Below, in pieces: positions 20,917 through 33,398 of a DNA stretch of 33,398 bases (its first letter is position 1; every line of letters begins with the position of its first letter). The DNA is from a virus. The translations under genes and the position numbers were made by a program. The stretch lies in IMG/VR virus record IMGVR_UViG_3300007735_000637, positions 1-33,398 of that record. One strand, 5' to 3'. The notes beneath the pieces were generated by a model. The model was not told the origin of the DNA and did no database searches. It saw nothing but the letters and a program-made list of their open reading frames with translations.

Positions 20917-23165
20917 TATTGCACCTTCACGATTTCAACGCCGACTGCGCGCCCATCAGGGCCGCGGACAATGCGCTTCGGGGCGGACATAGTTGCGAGT
21001 GCATCTTGCAGGCGACCGAGCGTCTCGCCGTGGCGGTTCATTGCCGATGCCTCGATGCCTTGCATCTGTTGCACCAGCATTTGCATCTGCTGGGCGATCT
21101 GGTCAGCAATCGCGCTGGCTTGGTGGGCCTGCGCCTCAATGCTCGGCACGTCGGCGCCGGCAGCTCCGATGCGCGCGACCATGATCTTGGTGTCCGCTTC
21201 CAGCTTCGCCTTCTGCTGCTCCAGCGCGACGGTTTGCGCCAATTCCTCGACCTTAAGCGCCGCCTCAAACCGCTGGCGCTGCTCTTCCATCGCCGCTGCA
21301 GCCTGAGCCTTCATCTGCTCGATCTGGATGTCCGCCTGGATCTTGGCCTGCTGGATCTGCGCGTCAATCTGGGCCTTCTGCTGCGCCATCTGCGCCTCCT
21401 GCTGCGCGCGGATCATTTCGGGATCGGGCGGCGGCGGGGCTGCGGCGGCCTGCTGTTGCTGCTGCGTCATGGAATCGAGCAGGCGGTCGAGGGTGCCTTC
21501 GAGGGTGTCGGCCTGCTTGAAAGCTTTCACCCCGTATTTCATCAGCTCAACCACAATCGGCGCGGCCTGCGGAACCTGCTGCACGACCGGCAGGGCTTTT
21601 TCAAGGAAGCCGCCGTAGGCCGTCACGAACTCCAAGCGGTCCTGCTTGTTCTGGTTTTCGTCGATCTGGACGAGGCTGTCGGATGCGACGTCAATGCGGA
21701 AATTGCGCAGCGGCTTGTCGCTGAGCAGCTGAATGGCCTGCGGGATTAGCTGCTGGTCGGTAGGCGCCATCTGATTGGCGGCAGCGTATTGCAACAGCGT
21801 CTGGGGCTGAAAATGCTGGCAGATGATCTGCGCCTTCAGGCGGATCAGCTCCGACGCAAACAGCGCGACCTCGTCCTGCATCGCGCGCAGGCGCAGGCCC
21901 GCGTACTGGCCTTTGATTTGCTGCGCGGTGGCGGTTTCGCTGGCGGCGGTCTGGCCTCGGATGATGTCCGAAATACCGGTGATTTCGTAGATCTGCGCCT
22001 TGATCTGCTCGCGCGCCGTGTAGCACTGGAGCAGCGCCTGGGCGAGCGTGTCGAGCGGCAGAAGGTCGATGCTGCCCTTGAGGCCGCCCTTCTCGCCAAA
22101 CGCCATCCATTTGTCGACCGGGATCAGGGCGTTGTTGTCGCCCTCGGTCAGCAGGCGCTGGAGTGCGGGCTGCGAGGCATCATAAACGCCGCGCATCCGG
22201 AGCGCCTTGACCAGCCCATCAATGCGGTCAGACAGGATGTCGAGTTCGTTGGCCTGATCCTGGTAGAGCAGGAAGTCCGGGACCGGGACGAGGCTATCAG
22301 ACGTCGTGGTCGCAAACAGCGGGCGCGGGCAGGGGAAGAAGCCTTCAAGACCGAGCGGGTCCGGACGCTCGTCGATGAACTGCGCCATGCCCTTGTGGAG
22401 CCAGTAGACGCGCTGCGTCTCCTTGTCCCAAAGTTCGCAGATTTTCGCTCGCGTGCCTTCGCGCTTGCGGTTGGGGCCGTCGAGGTTGTCGGGACCGCTG
22501 TCGAGCGGGATTTTCTTGCCGGCGTCGCCAAAGCGCTCGATCAGCGCCTCGCGGGTCATGTAGACCCAGCGCCAGACCTGCGTGACTTCTTCCCAGGTTC
22601 GCGCGCTGCTGTGGCCGAAGTCCTTCCAATGGACGTAATCGACCGGCGCGCACTCGTATTCGATCTCTTCCGGCTGCTCGGCGCCGTCCGGAAGGTTTCC
22701 GTCTTCGTCGACGTCCTCGGTGACCTGCGTGCCGTCCTCGGGCAGGCCCATCTCGACTGCACGCATGTGCGGCTCATAGCGCACCCACGCGACGCCGCGG
22801 CCGCCGAGGAAGCGGTCTTCGACCGCGTAGCGCATCGTTGCGCGGAAATCGGGGTAATGCTCGATTTCGTAGTCGAGGGCGCGCTCGATCAGCAGGGCGG
22901 CCACGCGACCGACCTGATCGTTGTCGGCGAAACGACGGCGGGCCGAGGCTTTCGGCAGGCGCGCGTAGACGGCCGGAATCAGCGTCTGGATGTTGGACCA
23001 AAGGATGTTGAACTTGACCGTCTCATTGCCGCTCTGCGTGCGCGTGTCGTCGCGATAGCGCTTGATGATCTTCGTCGCGCGCTTCTGCCAGCGCTCGAAC
23101 TCGTTTTCGTAGGTCGAGATGGCCTGAAGGTATTTCTGGACGCCGGTCGGTTGAACGTCAGGCAT
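20916..23165 (-). CDS. Portal protein, P22 type, 749 aa
   Basis: An early helical segment (FERWQKRATKIIKRYRDDTR) is followed by VKFNILWSNIQTLIPAVYAR and LPKASARRRF, DRFLGGRGVAWVRYEP, and a middle with VDYVHWKDFGHSSARTWEEV, typical of large podovirus portals. The last ~170 residues hold a poly-Q/Pro-rich hinge (QQQQQAAAAPPPPDPEMI) and long Gln/Ala-rich helices resembling the extended C-terminal barrel of P22 gp1. It forms the dodecameric DNA channel at one vertex. Length is normal for the P22-like class. It follows the methyltransferase gene with a small overlap. Confidence 0.92.
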   Translation of the reverse strand: MPDVQPTGVQKYLQAISTYENEFERWQKRATKIIKRYRDDTRTQSGNETVKFNILWSNIQTLIPAVYARLPKASARRRFADNDQVGRVAALLIERALDYEIEHYPDFRATMRYAVEDRFLGGRGVAWVRYEPHMRAVEMGLPEDGTQVTEDVDEDGNLPDGAEQPEEIEYECAPVDYVHWKDFGHSSARTWEEVTQVWRWVYMTREALIERFGDAGKKIPLDSGPDNLDGPNRKREGTRAKICELWDKETQRVYWLHKGMAQFIDERPDPLGLEGFFPCPRPLFATTTSDSLVPVPDFLLYQDQANELDILSDRIDGLVKALRMRGVYDASQPALQRLLTEGDNNALIPVDKWMAFGEKGGLKGSIDLLPLDTLAQALLQCYTAREQIKAQIYEITGISDIIRGQTAASETATAQQIKGQYAGLRLRAMQDEVALFASELIRLKAQIICQHFQPQTLLQYAAANQMAPTDQQLIPQAIQLLSDKPLRNFRIDVASDSLVQIDENQNKQDRLEFVTAYGGFLEKALPVVQQVPQAAPIVVELMKYGVKAFKQADTLEGTLDRLLDSMTQQQQQAAAAPPPPDPEMIRAQQEAQMAQQKAQIDAQIQQAKIQADIQIEQMKAQAAAAMEEQRQRFEAALKVEELAQTVALEQQKAKLEADTKIMVARIGAAGADVPSIEAQAHQASAIADQIAQQMQMLVQQMQGIEASAMNRHGETLGRLQDALATMSAPKRIVRGPDGRAVGVEIVKVQ

Positions 23166-23799
23166 TGGGCCTCCGGCGGAAAATCACGTCGCGATGAACA
23201 TGCCCGGCGACCATGTAGCCCAGATCGGCCAGCATGGTGATGGTATCGACGTCGGTGACGCCGTAGCGCTCGCCCAGGCCCTTCAGCTCCAGCACGATGG
23301 TCGGCCAGCTGCGCTTGATGGTCTCCAGCGCGCCCTGCACGGCGAAATGCTCGAATCCTTCGACGTCGAGGCAGAGCAGGTCGCAATCATCGATCCCGAG
23401 GCTGTCAATCCGCACAATGGCGAACTCGTCGCCGTCCTTGACGCGGTGCGCGCCGATGTTGTGCGGGTCGAAGCGGTCCATGGCACCGGTCGAGGGCTGA
23501 TGGCCGAACGCGGCGCGGTAGGCGATGACGTTGGCGCGCTCTTCGGTCGAGAGATGCCGGTTGAGGTTCTGCAGCAGCGCCGCGTGGTTATCGACGTCCG
23601 GCTCGACCGTCACGACGCGCGCGAATTCCTTGGCCAGCGCGACCGGCCAGATGCCGATGTTGCCGCCCGCCTGAATGACCGTGCGGCGGCCCGAGGTCAG
23701 CGGCAGGATGTCGGTCTCAAGATCCGTCACCTCGCGCAGGATGATCTCAAGCGCGACCTGATCGGCCTCGGGAACCCACCAATTGTCACGCAGCAGCAA
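23158..23799 (-). CDS. FkbM-like SAM-dependent methyltransferase, 213 aa
   Basis: TVIQAGGNIGIWPVALAKEF with VVTVEPD downstream forms the SAM-binding motif I and the acidic ribose-binding residue. CDLLCLDVEGFEHFAVQGAL and IKRSWPTIVLEL are typical of FkbM enzymes, which methylate hydroxyls, often on sugars. TTG 23799 is the favoured start because GGGAGG lies 6 nt upstream; it overlaps the end of the glycosyltransferase gene. The partner gene upstream suggests that the methylated target may be a glycan. Residues upstream in the same frame look non-coding. Confidence 0.8.
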   Translation of the reverse strand: MLLRDNWWVPEADQVALEIILREVTDLETDILPLTSGRRTVIQAGGNIGIWPVALAKEFARVVTVEPDVDNHAALLQNLNRHLSTEERANVIAYRAAFGHQPSTGAMDRFDPHNIGAHRVKDGDEFAIVRIDSLGIDDCDLLCLDVEGFEHFAVQGALETIKRSWPTIVLELKGLGERYGVTDVDTITMLADLGYMVAGHVHRDVIFRRRPNA

Positions 23800-24376
23800 G
23801 GTTGACCTCCCAGGGCCTGGGCTTACCGTGGAAGATAATGACCCGCTCGTTCTTGGTCCGTTCACTGGCTTTCCAGCTGCCAATTGCGCGCGGCGCGACG
23901 TCCTGCCAGAACGCGAACTCACCTGCGTAGTGCTGCTCCAGCCATTCCTGATCGCCGCCCATGTAGAAGCGCGGCTCGGCAGCGAACTCGCGGTAGAGAT
24001 GCGAAACGTCGTCCCTCCACCACATCATTGACGACTGCATGGCGTGGCGATTGGTCCGACCGCGGTAGAAATCGCGCAGGATCACGAAATGGTCGCCTCC
24101 GGCAAGTTCAATGACCGGCGAGATGTCGCGCACAATCACGGTGTCGAGGTCGAGGTACAGAACGGGGCCGGAAAGCTTGAAAACTTCCATCTTGGCCCAC
24201 CATCCGGGCCAGTCGTGTTCCAGCGCGATGGTTTCGCAGTCGAGGCGCCCGTGCAGGTCGGTCACGCACACAAAACGGTGCGCAGGCGCGAATTGAGCGC
24301 ACTGGTCGCGAAGCGCTGCGACATGCTCGGGCAGGTATTCTCCGCCGGAGCGCAGGACAGTGGCGATGGTGATCAT
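23786..24376 (-). CDS. Glycosyltransferase-like protein (GT-A fold, DxD), 196 aa
   Basis: A typical N-terminus (MITIATVLRSGGEYLPEHVA, then FVCVTDL), WAKMEVFKL, the DxD-containing YLDLDTVIVRDI (about 76-87) and GGDQEWLEQ near 143 resemble small GT8-like transferases found in phage and bacterial clusters. The DxD would bind a nucleotide sugar via a metal ion. It forms a pair with the FkbM gene and sits between terminase-proximal genes and the portal. The acceptor is unknown; virion protein or DNA are possibilities. ATGA overlap with the gene before it. Confidence 0.75.
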   Translation of the reverse strand: MITIATVLRSGGEYLPEHVAALRDQCAQFAPAHRFVCVTDLHGRLDCETIALEHDWPGWWAKMEVFKLSGPVLYLDLDTVIVRDISPVIELAGGDHFVILRDFYRGRTNRHAMQSSMMWWRDDVSHLYREFAAEPRFYMGGDQEWLEQHYAGEFAFWQDVAPRAIGSWKASERTKNERVIIFHGKPRPWEVNLAAA

Positions 24377-27590: not shown

Positions 27591-27824
27591 ATGGACAAGC
27601 GCATTGCAACCGCACTGAAGGTCCTGACCGCCGGCGGCTATTTCCGTCGCCAGCTTGAAACCGCCTACATGGGCGAAAAATTCAAGTACCGCCTCAAGGA
27701 CGCCGAAGGCCGCACGGTGCGCGGGATTGGTTTCGCCACGTTCAGCGCGCTGGAAGCGCGCCTTAAGATGCGCGATTGCGAACGGTCCACCAGCTGGCCG
27801 ATGGAGTGGGAACTCCGCGCCTAA
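27591..27824 (+). CDS. Small basic phage protein, 77 aa
   Basis: MDKRIATALKVLTAGGYFRR, YMGEKFKYRLKDAEGRTVRG and FATFSALEARLKMRDCERST give a compact alpha/beta protein of unknown family. ATG 27591 is chosen because the longer upstream frame is non-coding in appearance; AAAGGGAA lies just before it. It runs opposite to its neighbours, forming with the next gene a short rightward transcript that ends at the terminator at 28106-28148. Confidence 0.6.
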   Translation: MDKRIATALKVLTAGGYFRRQLETAYMGEKFKYRLKDAEGRTVRGIGFATFSALEARLKMRDCERSTSWPMEWELRA

Positions 27825-27912
27825 CGCATAGCGGGGTCGCAGAAAACGCACTTCTCAGCCCCGCCCGCCTGCCCACAATCTTCCCATCTCAACCCAAACC
27901 CAGGAGACAACG

Positions 27913-28053
27913 ATGCGCAACCCTTTCTCACTTCAAATCGGCTACACCGTCGGCTGGTATTTTGTGAGCGGCGAAGACCGCCACGGCGTGCAGCGTTTCC
28001 GCCTGTTTCGGTCGCGCGCCGAGGCCGAAGCTTGGATCGCGGAGGTGCAGTGA
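27913..28053 (+). CDS. Very small phage protein, 46 aa
   Basis: ATG 27913 follows a good AGGAG (27902-27906). The product begins MRNPFSLQIGYTVGWYFVSG and ends in an acidic-basic helix (SRAEAEAWIAEVQ). It looks like a small folded beta-hairpin-plus-helix protein: the first half is aromatic (GYTVGWYFV), the second charged. Too short for family recognition. It is the last gene before the terminator. Confidence 0.65.
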   Translation: MRNPFSLQIGYTVGWYFVSGEDRHGVQRFRLFRSRAEAEAWIAEVQ

Positions 28054-28148: not shown

Positions 28149-28716
28149 CATCCTCGTCCAGATTTTCCGCCCTCGCGGGCATCGGACCTCTTTCGCCCCT
28201 CCAGCCCGCCATGAGCCGGTTGAATTCCGCGCGCTGCTCGGCGCTCATCTCGGACCAGCGCCCCCGCGGCTGATGCTCGGCCACCGGCAGCGCGACTGCG
28301 CGGCGCAGCTGGTGGCGCAGGCGCTTCGCCTCGGCCGTTTCAACCTCAAGGTGCTCGCAAAGCTCAGCGTACGACGGGAAGAATTTGAACCTCCGCGCCG
28401 CCGAATTCAAACTTGACCGGTTGAACGCGCTGGCTGGGAATTCCAGCATCGTCGTCATCGCGCGGATCTTGCGCGCCGCCTCGGCTTCGCCTGCGGCGAC
28501 CGCGACCAACGCCCCGAGAGCCTCCAACCACCGCTCGACCAGTTCGCCCGGCGCCGGCTGCAGCGCCGCGTCAGCGGCCGCCATCGCGACCCGCGCCTCG
28601 GCGATCGTCTGGGATGAGATCGATAACGGTTCCCCCGGCTGCGCGGTCTCGATCCTCGCGAGCGCGCTTTTCAGCGAGGGCGATAAAACCGTTCCGATAG
28701 CGAGGCTGTTCGACAT
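28117..28716 (-). CDS. Replication-associated phage protein, 199 aa
   Basis: This helical protein follows the DUF1376 gene, as in many alphaproteobacterial phages. The pattern IRAMTTMLEFPASAFNRSSL followed by FKFFPSYAELCEHLE is conserved there and suggests a role beside the replication initiator, such as helicase loading, but no enzymatic motif is visible. AAGGAAG lies 8 nt before ATG 28716. Its first 146 bp overlap the 3' part of the DUF1376 gene in another frame. It ends inside the terminator for the opposite strand. Confidence 0.65.
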   Translation of the reverse strand: MSNSLAIGTVLSPSLKSALARIETAQPGEPLSISSQTIAEARVAMAAADAALQPAPGELVERWLEALGALVAVAAGEAEAARKIRAMTTMLEFPASAFNRSSLNSAARRFKFFPSYAELCEHLEVETAEAKRLRHQLRRAVALPVAEHQPRGRWSEMSAEQRAEFNRLMAGWRGERGPMPARAENLDEDEKDDPPARVA

Positions 28717-29365
28717 GGGATGGCTTCCTTTCCGATGAGCGGCGCACCCAATTGCGCCAGGTTGCGGACCAGTTTGATTTGCGCCCGGCCGCGCCGGGCT
28801 TTCCGTGCCAGTAATCGCGAAAACTGCCCGCCTCGCGGTCAGGGTCTATGCCCTCCGCCTCAGCGAACGCCCGGTCCTCCTCCGACGGCGTCCAATCGCT
28901 CGGCAGGCGCGATCCTCGGTCGGCGCGCTCTGCGCGCGACTCCCCGGACCCCTCAATTCTAGGAGATACCTCTCCTGTTTCTTCTTGGGTAATGGGTAAT
29001 GGGTCATGGGTAATGGGTGGTTGAACGTCCGTTGAACGGGCGTTGAACCGCCGTTGAGCCGATGCTTTTCCGGCCCTAGAGGCTTGTTCTTGCTTATTTT
29101 TGCATCGCACAATTTCCTCATCGGCGCGCCTGTTGACCCATCCTTCGCCGTCCACAAGCTCAAAAAATTCGGCTAGCACCGTCGCAACCTCGGTCTCGTG
29201 GTCGCGCATGTTGATGGCCCGTGCAACGTCCGTTGAACGGGCGTTCAACGGGCGTTCGTGCAGGTAATACAAATCGAGCAGGCGCCGATATGCCAGATCC
29301 TCCATCAGCGTCAGGTGCCGCGTGTGGCTCGCATAGTCGCCGATGTGGAAGGAATAAAAGCGCAT
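28571..29365 (-). CDS. DUF1376 (YdaU-like) replication protein, 264 aa
   Basis: MRFYSFHIGDYASHTRHLTL, MEDLAYRRLLDLYYLHERPL and WVNRRADEEI form a winged-helix-type DUF1376 domain, common in phage replication initiators. A linker holds low-complexity PITHDPLPITQ, then LPSDWTPSEEDRAFAEAEGI, FRDYWHGKPGAAGRKSNWSA and TWRNWVRRS, the usual C-terminal replication-protein module. ATG 29365 overlaps the preceding stop (TGATG). Two arrays of 11-bp repeats lie inside the coding sequence. The last 146 bp overlap the next gene. Confidence 0.85.
   Translation of the reverse strand: MRFYSFHIGDYASHTRHLTLMEDLAYRRLLDLYYLHERPLNARSTDVARAINMRDHETEVATVLAEFFELVDGEGWVNRRADEEIVRCKNKQEQASRAGKASAQRRFNARSTDVQPPITHDPLPITQEETGEVSPRIEGSGESRAERADRGSRLPSDWTPSEEDRAFAEAEGIDPDREAGSFRDYWHGKPGAAGRKSNWSATWRNWVRRSSERKPSHVEQPRYRNGFIALAEKRAREDRDRAAGGTVIDLIPDDRRGAGRDGGR
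28987..29063 (+). repeat. Origin-like repeat array: heptamers followed by 11-bp iterons
   Basis: On the plus strand GGGTAAT, GGGTAAT, GGGTCAT, GGGTAAT and GGGTGG run at 7-bp spacing from 28987. They are followed at once by GTTGAACGTCC, GTTGAACGGGC, GTTGAACCGCC and GTTGAGCCGAT at 29020, 29031, 29042 and 29053, exactly 11 bp apart. Periods of 7 and 11 are not multiples of three, so the regularity is at DNA level within the replication gene. Confidence 0.7.
29221..29260 (+). repeat. Second 11-bp iteron array in the replication gene
   Basis: GTGCAAC, GTTGAAC, GTTCAAC and GTTCGTG start at 29221, 29232, 29243 and 29254, again 11 bp apart. Bases 29225-29245 are identical to 29024-29044 of the first array. 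The copies are 201 bp apart in the same codon frame and both encode NARSTDV. Confidence 0.65.
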
Positions 29366-29553
29366 CACACGACACTCCTCGCCTGCTGCAGAAGCTCACG
29401 AATCCTGAGCTTCGCCTTGTCGTTGTGTCGCTTTTGGCATGCGGTGCAAGACGCGCTCACCGTATATCTTTCGGTGTTTCCGCAAATCTTGCAGGGATTT
29501 CCCTTGTACCGATTATGGCCGCATTTTGCCGCTTCGAGCCTTGCCGAGTCCAT
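29365..29553 (-). CDS. Small zinc-finger protein, 62 aa
   Basis: ATG 29553 has AAAGGA 8 nt upstream. The sequence KCGHNRYKGNPCKICGNTER, then YTVSASCTACQKRHND, has four CxxC-type cysteines typical of a small zinc ribbon, similar to the metal-binding core of short phage recombination or endonuclease VII-like proteins, but the rest of such enzymes is missing. DNA binding is likely. A gap of 202 bp separates it from the GapR-like gene; I see no convincing gene in it. Confidence 0.7.
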   Translation of the reverse strand: MDSARLEAAKCGHNRYKGNPCKICGNTERYTVSASCTACQKRHNDKAKLRIRELLQQARSVV

Positions 29554-29755: not shown

Positions 29756-30007
29756 TCAGATCAGGGTCAGTTGCACCCCCAGGCGGTCGGCGTAGAGCGC
29801 CACCGCCTGCAACCGTTCTTCTGCGCGCACCCGCTTGCGGTCATCGCGCCGCAGCTTGGCAACCGAAACCAGCGCCGCCGGGTCAAACCCCGCCGACTTG
29901 ATCTCGGTTTTCAGATCTTTGAGCGCCGCGCTGGCCGTCTCGACCTCGTCGAGAACCCGGTCGAGCCGGTCGGCAAAACGCGATAGGTCGTCATTCGTGA
30001 TCGTCAT
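29756..30007 (-). CDS. GapR-like DUF2312 protein, 83 aa
   Basis: The helical sequence (LSRFADRLDRVLDEVETASA, LKDLKTEIKSAGFDPAALVS, VAKLRRDDRKRVRAEERLQA) fits the DUF2312 family typified by Caulobacter GapR, a nucleoid protein that clamps overtwisted, AT-rich DNA ahead of forks. Homologues occur almost only in Alphaproteobacteria and their phages. In a replication operon it may aid phage DNA synthesis. ATG 30007 overlaps the resolvase stop by 17 nt. Confidence 0.8.
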   Translation of the reverse strand: MTITNDDLSRFADRLDRVLDEVETASAALKDLKTEIKSAGFDPAALVSVAKLRRDDRKRVRAEERLQAVALYADRLGVQLTLI

Positions 30008-30386
30008 CGTCGAGAACCTCCTCGATGTGCAGCTCAGTCCGGGGCTGCGTCCGGTCAAGACCGTGGTACAGGTGCATTTCGCGCACCTGCCGGTCGTTCT
30101 GATAGATCCTGTCTTGAAGCGCGTCTAGAATCAGCGAAATGTCCAGATCCGGCCGCCTTGAGGCGTAAAAAACCCGCGCGGTCAGCTTGAGCGTCCCGCG
30201 CAGTTGCTCGGCCTCGGGCAACCGCGGAACCTGAAACCTTAGCGCGTCGACGTAATCGAGCGCCTTCTGCGACTTGATGAACGCGACCTTGCCGCCGCGC
30301 CGCACCATCCGCCGCGAATTGGCCTTGCTCGCAGGTTCCCCGGCAATAACCCCAGCCCACCAGCGCAACGGCAGCGCGCGCTTCAT
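29991..30386 (-). CDS. RusA-like Holliday junction resolvase, 131 aa
   Basis: GEPASKANSRRMV near the N-terminus and RRPDLDISLILDALQDRIYQ with NDRQVREM (residues 78-104) resemble RusA, which cuts four-way junctions using three Asp residues. D80, D82 and the acidic D88/D98 positions are present. The spacing after the DLD is two residues shorter than in E. coli RusA and its catalytic-region Lys is absent. An acidic C-terminal tail (EEVLDDDDHE) ends the protein. It would resolve recombination or replication intermediates made with the exonuclease/RecT pair. ATGA overlap with the gene before it. Confidence 0.78.
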   Translation of the reverse strand: MKRALPLRWWAGVIAGEPASKANSRRMVRRGGKVAFIKSQKALDYVDALRFQVPRLPEAEQLRGTLKLTARVFYASRRPDLDISLILDALQDRIYQNDRQVREMHLYHGLDRTQPRTELHIEEVLDDDDHE

Positions 30387-31066
30387 GGGCGCGCCTCGAT
30401 CACGCTCTGCGCGGTCGAATTGCGCGACACGACCTGAGCGGGCCTGTCAAAGCGCGCCGGGTTGAAATTCAGGTTGGCGCGCGGGTGATCCTCATACCGC
30501 CGACCGGCCATCAGCGACGCCCACAGCGACTCGGCCGCGGCGACGCGCGAGGCCGTGGTCTGCTCCCGCGCTTCGTCCCATGACATGACGCGCCGGTCGG
30601 CAACGTCCTGCGGCAGCAACTTGTAGGCCCGCGCATCGCCGACGCCCGTCCGCTCGATCTGCCCGCGCGCGATTCGGCCCGCGATGTTGTTCCTGAGCCG
30701 GTCCAGACTGACGCCGTTTTTCGCCATCTCTGCGGCGATTTCGGACTCAAGCAGCGTGTTATCAGGCGCCCGCCGCAGCATCTCGAAAATCACCGGCATG
30801 ACCGGCGTTTTGTTGGGCCGCAAACGCGGCGGCCGCGGCAAGAATCCGTCGCCCTCACGGCTTAGCGTTCCGTCGCCGACTGCCTCGCGGAGCCTTTTGA
30901 CGATGAAGCCGCGACGATGCCGCGCGATCGCCAGCGCTTGCCTGCGCTTCGCCTCGGTCAGAGGCGTTGTGGCGCGCGGCGGCGCAAACCGAGCAACGAT
31001 GTCGGCTTCCGGCACCGGCCCGGTCTGCGTGCGTAGCCACATGACGATTTTTTCGATTAGGGTCAT
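30383..31066 (-). CDS. Tandem winged-helix protein, 227 aa
   Basis: ATG 31066 makes an ATGA overlap with the repressor gene. Two winged-helix-like units are visible: TLIEKIVMWLRTQTGPVPEA ... FIVKRLREAVGDGTLSREGD and MPVIFEMLRRAPDNTLLESE ... RNNIAGRIARGQIERTGVGD. A shorter C-terminal region (MSWDEAREQTTASRVAAAES) follows. No enzymatic motif is seen. DNA binding is expected, possibly in replication start or early regulation. No family name can be given. Confidence 0.65.
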   Translation of the reverse strand: MTLIEKIVMWLRTQTGPVPEADIVARFAPPRATTPLTEAKRRQALAIARHRRGFIVKRLREAVGDGTLSREGDGFLPRPPRLRPNKTPVMPVIFEMLRRAPDNTLLESEIAAEMAKNGVSLDRLRNNIAGRIARGQIERTGVGDARAYKLLPQDVADRRVMSWDEAREQTTASRVAAAESLWASLMAGRRYEDHPRANLNFNPARFDRPAQVVSRNSTAQSVIEARP

Positions 31067-31254
31067 TCTGCGCGCCCCTGCGGCAGATGCTCGTCGCGAT
31101 AAAATCGCGTCCTCTTGCGGTCGTTCAGCACCGCCAAAATCGCCGCGCGCCACGCAGGCGGAATGCGCCGTTGACGCCATTTTTTCGCGGTTTCGTATGG
31201 GACGCCCAGGCGGTCCGCGACCGCGTGAACGGTATGCCAGTCGATCTGCATCAT
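31063..31254 (-). CDS. Cro/YdaS-like helix-turn-helix repressor, 63 aa
   Basis: DWHTVHAVADRLGVPYETAK, KWRQRRIPPAWRAAILAVLN show a helix-turn-helix in which a short alpha-helical unit is followed by the K-W-x-x-R-x-I-P-x-x-W pattern typical of YdaS/Cro-like and Carph-type phage regulators. No ribosome-binding site precedes ATG 31254 or the next ATG at 31251. A promoter candidate with its operator in the spacer ends 6 nt upstream, so the mRNA probably begins at the start codon. It likely represses itself and the opposite early promoter. Confidence 0.8.
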   Translation of the reverse strand: MMQIDWHTVHAVADRLGVPYETAKKWRQRRIPPAWRAAILAVLNDRKRTRFYRDEHLPQGRAE

Positions 31255-31260
31255 GTGCGC

Positions 31261-31289
31261 ATCATGGGACAATCGTCCCGGAATGTCAA
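31261..31289 (-). promoter_or_regulatory. Leftward early promoter with operator 1 in the spacer
   Basis: Minus strand: TTGACA (31289-31284), exactly the -35 consensus, a 17-bp spacer and CATGAT (31266-31261), four of six -10 positions. The spacer contains the inverted repeat GGGAC-N4-GTCCC (31266-31279). A bound repressor would cover the promoter. Transcription should begin about 31254, at the repressor start codon. Confidence 0.7.
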
Positions 31290-31297
31290 AAAAGATG

Positions 31298-31326
31298 TTG
31301 ACGCCGGGGACACGTGTCCCTTAGCT
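31298..31326 (+). promoter_or_regulatory. Rightward early promoter candidate with operator 2 in the spacer
   Basis: TTGACG (31298-31303), a 17-bp spacer and TTAGCT (31321-31326). The -35 is good and the -10 weak. The spacer contains GGGACACGTGTCCC (31307-31320), a perfect palindrome with the same GGGAC/GTCCC half-sites as operator 1. The two operator centres are 41 bp apart, close to four helical turns. Confidence 0.6.
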
Positions 31327-31373
31327 TGCCTGCACCGACGGCGTGGGGCCGCCGGTTTTCGAGGGAGAGCAAC

Positions 31374-31613
31374 ATGGCAATGAATGCAAGCGTCAGCATC
31401 ACCAGCGGCAGCGAAATGATCGCAGAAGTTGGGAATCAAAAGACAAATAGCTGGCTCTGGCTTACCGCCAAAGATCGCGACTTCAATCGCTACACGATCA
31501 CGTTCTTGACCATAGAGGACGCTGAGCGCGCCGCGCACGCGATCCTCGCCGCCGTCGCCAAAGCCCGTCCCGCCCTCGCCCCGCAGGGCCTTGTGGTCGA
31601 GGACGTGGTCTGA
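31374..31613 (+). CDS. First gene of the rightward early operon, hypothetical, 79 aa
   Basis: ATG 31374 follows GAGGGAGAGC. The product (MAMNASVSITSGSEMIAEVG, WLWLTAKDRDFNRYTITFLT) appears to be a small beta-alpha protein ending in a helix, of no recognised family. As the first gene behind the regulated early promoter it may be an anti-host or regulatory protein. Its end overlaps the next possible ATG (TGATG). Confidence 0.6.
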   Translation: MAMNASVSITSGSEMIAEVGNQKTNSWLWLTAKDRDFNRYTITFLTIEDAERAAHAILAAVAKARPALAPQGLVVEDVV

Positions 31614-31903: not shown

Positions 31904-32051
31904 CGCGTCAAAGCGGCGGCGCGCCTTGGCTGCGCACCGCCGCCTTGTCCGTGCTGCGATGATGGCGCCGCGCGGGCAAAAGCAGAAAAGGCTAGAGACG
32001 CTCCGGGCTTGGGTTCGGGCGCAACTGAGGAGGGAGATTAATGATCGCTGA
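31896..32051 (+). CDS. Very basic small protein, 51 aa
   Basis: This short frame starts inside the end of the previous gene and overlaps the exonuclease start by 11 nt. It encodes a helical, Arg/Lys-rich peptide (SKRRRALAAHRRLVRAAMMA, KQKRLETLRAWVRAQLRRE). Basic peptides of this size could bind nucleic acid. No clear ribosome-binding site; translation would rely on coupling. Real but uncertain. Confidence 0.45.
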   Translation: MPDASKRRRALAAHRRLVRAAMMAPRGQKQKRLETLRAWVRAQLRREINDR

Positions 32052-32910
32052 TGGCATACACCACAATCTGAGCTTTGCTCAGTATCTCGACCACGGCACC
32101 TTCGGCCCGCGTGCGGTGTCCGGTTCGGACCTCGTCGCGTTCGAGACCGAGTGCCCCGCCCACGCATACGCGTTCTGGCGGGGAAACCCTGATCGCGAGA
32201 TCAGCGACGCCACGCCAGCAATGGCATTCGGCAGCGCCGCCCATGCCTACATTTTGGAGGGCGCCGAGGCGTTCCACGCGCGCTACGCGGTCAAGCCGGA
32301 CGGCCTGTCGCTGGCCACCCGCGAAGGCAAGCAGTGGAAGGAGAGCCTAGGCGGCCGCGAGATCGTCAGCTTCACTGACCACATGCGCATCGTCGCAATG
32401 TACGGCGCCTTGATGAGCAACCCCGCCGCCGCGAAGCTGCTGCGGGCCGGCGGCGTCGCCGAGGCGACCATGATCGCAACCGACCCGGAGACCGGCTTGC
32501 GCCTGCTGACGCGTCCGGATCTGTTCATCGGCAAGCTTGGGCTGTCGGTCAACCTCAAGACCACCATGGCCCCAAACCCCGAGGCATGGCGCCGCACCTG
32601 CGCGAACCTGCGATATGACCTGTCCGACGCCCTGTTCCGCCGCGTCGCGCGACTGTTGCAGATCGAGAATGCCAGCCATGCGTTCTTGGTCGTTGGCAGC
32701 AAGCCCCCGCACCTGAACTATGTGGCCGCGCTGTCTGCCGAGGCGGCGCACGCAGCGGACCAGCAGCTCGACCAGATCCTGCGCCGGTTCGCGGCGTGCA
32801 TCGACTCCGGCAAATGGCCCGGCTACGCCGATGGCGTTGTCGAGATTGGCCTGCCCACCTGGGCGGCCGCGAAGATCCAACACAGCATCATCGAGGGAGA
32901 CGCAGCATGA
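32041..32910 (+). CDS. RecE/YqaJ-like PD-(D/E)xK exonuclease, 289 aa
   Basis: NLSFAQYLDHGTFGPRAVSG and FGSAAHAYILEGAEAFHARY match the start of the DUF3799-type nuclease domain. GLRLLTRPDLF carries the PD acidic residue, but the following D/ExK element reads NLKTT (in LSVNLKTTMAPN) instead of DLKTT or similar. LFRRVARLLQIENAS and FLVVGSKPPHLNYVAAL follow as in the family. It would resect double-strand ends and hand ssDNA to the downstream RecT. AGGAGGGAG lies before ATG 32041. ATGA overlap with recT. Confidence 0.85.
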   Translation: MIADGIHHNLSFAQYLDHGTFGPRAVSGSDLVAFETECPAHAYAFWRGNPDREISDATPAMAFGSAAHAYILEGAEAFHARYAVKPDGLSLATREGKQWKESLGGREIVSFTDHMRIVAMYGALMSNPAAAKLLRAGGVAEATMIATDPETGLRLLTRPDLFIGKLGLSVNLKTTMAPNPEAWRRTCANLRYDLSDALFRRVARLLQIENASHAFLVVGSKPPHLNYVAALSAEAAHAADQQLDQILRRFAACIDSGKWPGYADGVVEIGLPTWAAAKIQHSIIEGDAA

Positions 32911-33398
32911 CCAGCAACGCGACCACCCTGCCGACCGCCGCGCGCAGCGTCGCGGTCGACTTCAACGACCCCGTCGCGGTTTATCTAGACTCCGACATCT
33001 TTGCGCAGCTGCAGCGCGTCGCCAAGCTGATGTCGAGCGCCTCGCTGGCGCCCGCGCATCTGCGCGGCGAGGGCAAGCTGGGCGACTGCTTCCTGGTCGC
33101 GGCGCAGGCGTTTCGCTGGCGCATGGACCCGTTCAGCGTGGCCCAGCACACCTACGTATTGAGCGGAAAACTTGGCTACGAGGGCAAGCTCATTGCGGCC
33201 GTGGTCAACAGCAGCGGCAAGCTGCAAGGCAGCCTTGACTACCGCTACAGCGGCTTGGGCGACCAGCGCAGCGTCGTCGTCAGTGGCAAGTTGCTTGGCG
33301 ACGCCGAGCCGCGCGAGATCGTCGGCACGGTCGGCGGCTGGAAGACCAGCAACGAACAATGGAAGAAGAACCCCGACCAGATGCTCGCCTACCGCGGC
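32907..33398 (+). CDS. RecT-type single-strand annealing protein, N-terminal part (3' truncated by window edge)
   Basis: DIFAQLQRVAKLMSSASLAP followed by CFLVAAQAFRWRMDPFSVAQ is a classical RecT core, then GKLGYEGKLIAAVVNSSGKL and EQWKKNPDQMLAYRG, after which the window ends on a codon boundary. The C-terminal remainder most likely lies at 1-399. RecT anneals ssDNA produced by the upstream exonuclease and promotes phage recombination and concatemer formation. GAGGGAG lies upstream of ATG 32907. Confidence 0.9.
   Translation, partial: MTSNATTLPTAARSVAVDFNDPVAVYLDSDIFAQLQRVAKLMSSASLAPAHLRGEGKLGDCFLVAAQAFRWRMDPFSVAQHTYVLSGKLGYEGKLIAAVVNSSGKLQGSLDYRYSGLGDQRSVVVSGKLLGDAEPREIVGTVGGWKTSNEQWKKNPDQMLAYRG

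Follow-up and report, generated by a model that had tools for sequence, protein, structure and literature searches.

Small helix-turn-helix (HTH) proteins of the P22, N15 and Xfaso 1 Cro type (Pfam P22_Cro; PDB 1rzs, 2hin and 3bd1) are encoded by the first gene of an early operon and are associated with palindromic operators that overlap divergent early promoters, three such operators lying between cI and cro. At lambda OR, the divergent promoters PRM and PR likewise share an operator sequence. The lambda cI mRNA made from PRM is leaderless. In temperate phages Cro-like proteins are typically paired with a CI repressor (PMC4997575), and the half-sites of Cro operators change in step with the recognition helix (cited in PMC4997575 from Hall, Lefevre and Cordes 2005).

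Here we analyse the IMG/VR phage record IMGVR_UViG_3300007735_000637, the whole of which (33,398 bases, G000 among the records compared) is called the window. Its early region shares with P22-type systems a gene for a small HTH protein, 63 amino acids (aa) long, at the head of an early operon beside palindromic candidate operators in divergent early promoters, and shares with lambda OR an operator sequence common to both promoters. It differs from the P22 type in that the regulator is a remote relative, probably translated from a leaderless mRNA, and in that there are two candidate operators, one per promoter. Compared with lambda, the operator sequence is unrelated and again each promoter has only one. 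In contrast to both systems, a CI partner was not found in the window, nor was an integrase. We favour, with a probability of roughly 0.7, a Cro-type autoregulatory circuit that would time the lytic early genes rather than choose between lysis and lysogeny.

Genome organisation

The record is listed as linear in IMG/VR, yet base 1 continues the RecT gene cut at base 33398, with about 39 bp missing at this junction by comparison with relative G001. Since its ends meet inside RecT, the window is, judging from sequence, a near-complete, circularly permuted genome. For the same reason we rejected the idea of a repressor encoded beyond the contig end.

Leftward from position 31254, the minus strand encodes the 63-aa HTH protein (31063..31254), a 227-aa protein (30383..31066), a RusA-like Holliday junction resolvase (29991..30386), a GapR-like DNA-binding protein (29756..30058; Pfam GapR_DNA-bd, 4e-9) and a DUF1376/primosomal replication protein (28571..29368), followed by terminase, portal, structural and lysis genes. 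GapR itself is known in Caulobacter as a protein of the nucleoid. Rightward from 31374, the plus strand encodes a 79-aa protein (31374..31613) preceded by a ribosome site, GAGGGAGAG, at 31361-31369, then exonuclease VIII (RecE-like; 32041..32910), RecT, which is split across the record ends, and small genes that converge with the leftward block near 2855. Only a few short ORFs on the plus strand, near 27600-28050, break this two-block layout; those at 27591-27821 and 27913-28050 lie within the leftward block, between the terminase and replication genes.

Matches to FkbM methyltransferase, MptE-like, acyltransferase and glycosyltransferase families occur among the structural genes, for instance at 23158-23922 on the minus strand, most of them being placed in the structural region without an exact gene. 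Such cargo is unusual for a 33-kb phage.

Palindromes and opposed promoters

The starting point was a sequence-only reading that located GGGAC-N4-GTCCC palindromes at 31266-31279 and 31307-31320, 41 bp apart between divergent genes. Both palindromes are found there, the 41 bp (centre to centre) and the divergence of the flanking genes are confirmed by the sequence and gene orientation, and no other exact site exists in the 33,398 bases, for 0.03 expected per window on average in dinucleotide shuffles. The pair is also the sole case in the window of palindromes with identical 5-bp arms and an N4 centre lying within 120 bp of each other; shuffles contain 0.1 such pairs on average. The right site, GGGACACGTGTCCC, is fully symmetrical and the left one, GGGACAATCGTCCC, only in its 5-bp arms; neither is assigned a strand. 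Together these two candidate operators mark the point from which both main transcription units of the record originate.

The left palindrome lies in the spacer of a predicted leftward promoter (31261..31289, minus strand) made of a -35 TTGACA (31289-31284), a 17-bp spacer and a -10 CATGAT (31266-31261), whose hexamers are unchanged in relative L005. This was the only promoter-like match returned by a consensus scan of the region, for 0.1 expected. The right palindrome lies in the spacer of a predicted rightward promoter (31298..31327, plus strand) with a -35 TTGACG (31298-31303) and a poor -10. That promoter was missed by the same scan and is therefore weaker evidence than the leftward one. 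Its -10 can be read as TTAGCT (31321-31326) after 17 bp, which matches TATAAT at only 2 of 6 positions, or as TAGCTT (31322-31327) after 18 bp; the latter appears better because L005, with TAGTGT at this place, preserves its TA...T. The proposal that each palindrome fits exactly within a 17-bp spacer therefore needs correction on both sides: the left palindrome lies in such a spacer but overlaps the -10 hexamer by one base, and the right one is better read with an 18-bp spacer.

Since the leftward -10 ends six bases ahead of the regulator ATG, the regulator mRNA is probably leaderless, with its start expected at the ATG itself, and may thus be likened to the lambda cI mRNA. No Shine-Dalgarno sequence precedes the ATG of the 63-aa gene. 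At the sister loci described below the space for a leader is likewise short and the HTH gene has no evident ribosome site, while the first rightward genes have one.

Identity of the 63-aa regulator

The window protein matches the NCBIfam family NF046037, carph-isopro, at 25.3 bits (E 1.3e-5), and thus shares its domain at a score under the curated cut-off of 38. Matches of the sister proteins go up to 3e-16, and several reach or exceed 38 bits. Of 12 related records, 11 have a single match to the family, and in 10 of them it falls at the regulator position. A search for open-access papers that use the name carph-isopro found none.

A pooled HTH profile (A6) matches solved Cro proteins, namely 3bd1 (3.6e-7), P22 Cro 1rzs (0.006) and 2hin (0.02), and a profile built without the window-type protein also matches solved phage Cro proteins. 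A sister protein compared with Pfam P22_Cro gives a weak match (3e-4), under the family cut-off. The window type alone has no match in the PDB, and its comparison with the sister profile by hhalign gives an E-value of 2e-4 with a probability of only 44%. Its predicted structure, three helices in a poor model (pLDDT 67), gave no useful fold match in a structure search. A search of cultured phages found no convincing relative for the window HTH protein or for the sister one. From these comparisons, a Cro-like identity appears well supported for the HTH family; for the window protein, a weak but recognisable relative, it is probable. The profile matches support, though more weakly, a homology of the window regulator to its sister counterparts and to Cro.

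Conservation was to be sought in related phages carrying the same regulator, and a single such relative, G001, was found. Its 63-aa protein is 94% identical to that of the window, and it keeps both GGGACN4GTCCC sites in the same places with their 41-bp spacing, the left site being identical and the right one having identical half-sites and one changed central base. None of the 20 half-site bases is changed, against 12 of 99 other intergenic bases; from these counts, the chance of no half-site change given 12 in 119 is estimated at about 0.1. Taken alone, this conservation is weak evidence that the half-sites are maintained.

Sister phages carry another regulator and another palindrome

About 40 loci were retrieved with the exonuclease as query and about 60 with the sister HTH protein; 39 regions were tabulated. 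The sister phages have an exonuclease VIII 62-67% identical to that of the window and the same gene order, but keep of the 227-aa protein only a short C-terminal motif of 18 residues. The HTH protein at the regulator position is only about 20% identical to the window protein, the two having in common the NCBIfam domain (E 1e-5 for the window, 4e-9 for the sister protein).

GGGACN4GTCCC is absent throughout the sister phages, which carry TACAC-N5-GTGTA-type sites, such as TACACCCGGCGTGTA, in both opposed promoters. One site lies in the leftward promoter. On the right, a strong GGTGTA half-site overlaps TATGTT, the -10 of the rightward promoter, and the other half is degenerate in many sister loci. 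In the deepest groups (L142-L149) the pattern is kept in parts only and the left palindrome is unrecognisable. A generally conserved 41-bp spacing was rejected, sister groups having spacings of 54-55 and 73-78 bp.

Among the 12 long records, the GGGACN4GTCCC and TACAC..GTGTA patterns are mutually exclusive and track the regulator type. It is chiefly because regulator and operator change jointly within a conserved layout that we regard the adjacent HTH protein as the likely ligand of the palindromes, as had been proposed for the 63-aa protein: where the regulator differs, a different operator stands in the same places.

In two records (G006:C1:5274-5288 and G008:C1:2716-2730), an extra palindrome of the sister type, TACACCCGTGGTGTA, lies some 1.9 kb away from the regulator region.

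Proposed circuit and lysogeny genes

From this arrangement we infer the following circuit. On entry, early transcription would be strong in both directions. The 63-aa protein, encoded by the first gene of the leftward replication operon and probably translated from a leaderless mRNA, would bind, most likely as a dimer, the GGGACN4GTCCC site within its own promoter spacer as well as that in the spacer of the opposed rightward promoter, which is predicted to drive exonuclease VIII and RecT. Occupation of either spacer would block RNA polymerase, simple steric repression being the obvious reading because the operators sit in the spacers of both promoters. Transcription both ways would then fall as the protein builds up.

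Such a circuit could also belong to a full lysis-lysogeny switch, in which an undetected CI analogue would share the two operators and the phage would persist as a plasmid or through an unfamiliar integrase. The usual pairing of Cro-like proteins with CI speaks for it, as do the XRE repressors that adjoin the same palindrome in other phages. No Phage_integrase or Resolvase match was found in any of the 12 records, however, and Peptidase_S24, the CI-type domain, was matched in only one of them, G008; neither the window nor G001 has an S24 or HTH_3 match. The DNA-binding regulators that stand out among the Pfam matches of the 55 window proteins, with 25 of 30 families listed, are only the 63-aa HTH protein and the GapR-like protein. 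In addition, a search of the bacterial genome collection, which reaches only fairly close relatives, found none for the sister HTH protein or the exonuclease. A lysogeny repressor outside the S24 family could escape the family search. Since neither a CI-type S24 repressor nor an integrase was found in a near-complete genome, lytic timing is the likelier role and a lysis-lysogeny switch is, in our judgement, unlikely. We rejected a lambda-type CI switch in the window, which has no S24, HTH_3 or integrase match. The earlier description of the locus as a compact two-operator switch is thus retained for two matching operators in opposed early promoters and is too strong in a lysis-lysogeny sense.

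The sister record G008 (IMGVR_UViG_3300042906_001042) provides a further point in favour of such a switch. At its contig end (L152, 1512-2237), the genes of an S24 CI-like repressor and of a second Cro-like protein with the carph-isopro domain diverge from each other, and the usual single HTH circuit is kept as well. This sister phage has possibly acquired a complete immunity module.

XRE repressors of unrelated phages

The sequence-only reading had considered the operator to be unlike known lambda-type operators. A wider claim, that it is unlike any other, was rejected, since the same palindrome stands beside XRE repressors in phages unrelated to the window. No paper describing a GGGACN4GTCCC operator in phages was found. 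On unrelated phage contigs (L155-L189), XRE repressors with a GVSYEQLKK helix adjoin GGGACN4GTCCC, the site usually preceding their start by some 80 bp; the palindrome is matched 26 times in 209 kb, against none for four control palindromes. One of these loci, L023/L178, carries the left site of the window letter for letter. The XRE proteins are longer than the window regulator (about 105-215 aa), their sites are often in tandem 25-29 bp apart, and their phage backbones are different.

The recognition helix of the window protein, GVPYETAKKWRQR, is partly similar to GVSYEQLKK, and in G001 a Q replaces the shared E. Several SYEQLKK loci lack the exact site and have degenerate versions only. In a wider screen of 44 loci that have a GGGACA-type site close to TTGAC, a GVSYEQLKK-like helix was encoded at only 4, compared with 0 of 239 control stretches, L005 itself falling outside the search expression. 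Based on the Q for E in G001, the degenerate-only loci and the 4 of 44, a strict code by which YE..KK would specify GGGAC was rejected; the resemblance is better taken as a lead towards a specificity that may be shared with XRE repressors.

The count of 26 against none and the letter-for-letter left site also speak for a rival reading, in which the palindromes would be mainly targets of an XRE repressor with the GVSYEQLKK helix, encoded by the host or a resident prophage and silencing the incoming phage. Yet the phage encodes its own adjacent HTH protein, and a host repressor leaves unexplained the joint change of operator and regulator in the sister phages, so that this form of heteroimmunity seems quite improbable to us as the main role of the sites. 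Last, palindromes near replication genes can serve as iterons, RNA hairpins, or restriction or modification sites, but we hold such roles to be very improbable here, given that the sites number exactly two and both lie within promoter spacers, the like placement of different palindromes in the sister phages and the lack of any terminator-like signature in the region.

With the Cro-type timing circuit as the preferred reading, these phages would offer a series of small natural regulators, the operators of which are legible in the promoters where they lie (two types in close relatives, GGGACN4GTCCC and TACAC..GTGTA, and variant forms), and the joint change of HTH protein and operator could be tested on real pairs. 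The circuit suggests that autorepression of the Cro type may work on its own, with no CI, and leads one to expect possible cross-talk with the repressors of unrelated prophages. More speculatively, and with rather low probability, a family of small environmental phages may use a Cro-only circuit without CI or integrase in which regulator-operator pairs are replaced together between relatives; because its operator type is common to the repressors of unrelated temperate phages, a lytic phage of this kind could be silenced by resident prophages belonging to other phage families.

As a separate observation, at locus L050 (3702-4205) a different HTH protein of 167 aa replaces the window-type regulator module, in a relative whose exonuclease is 86% identical.
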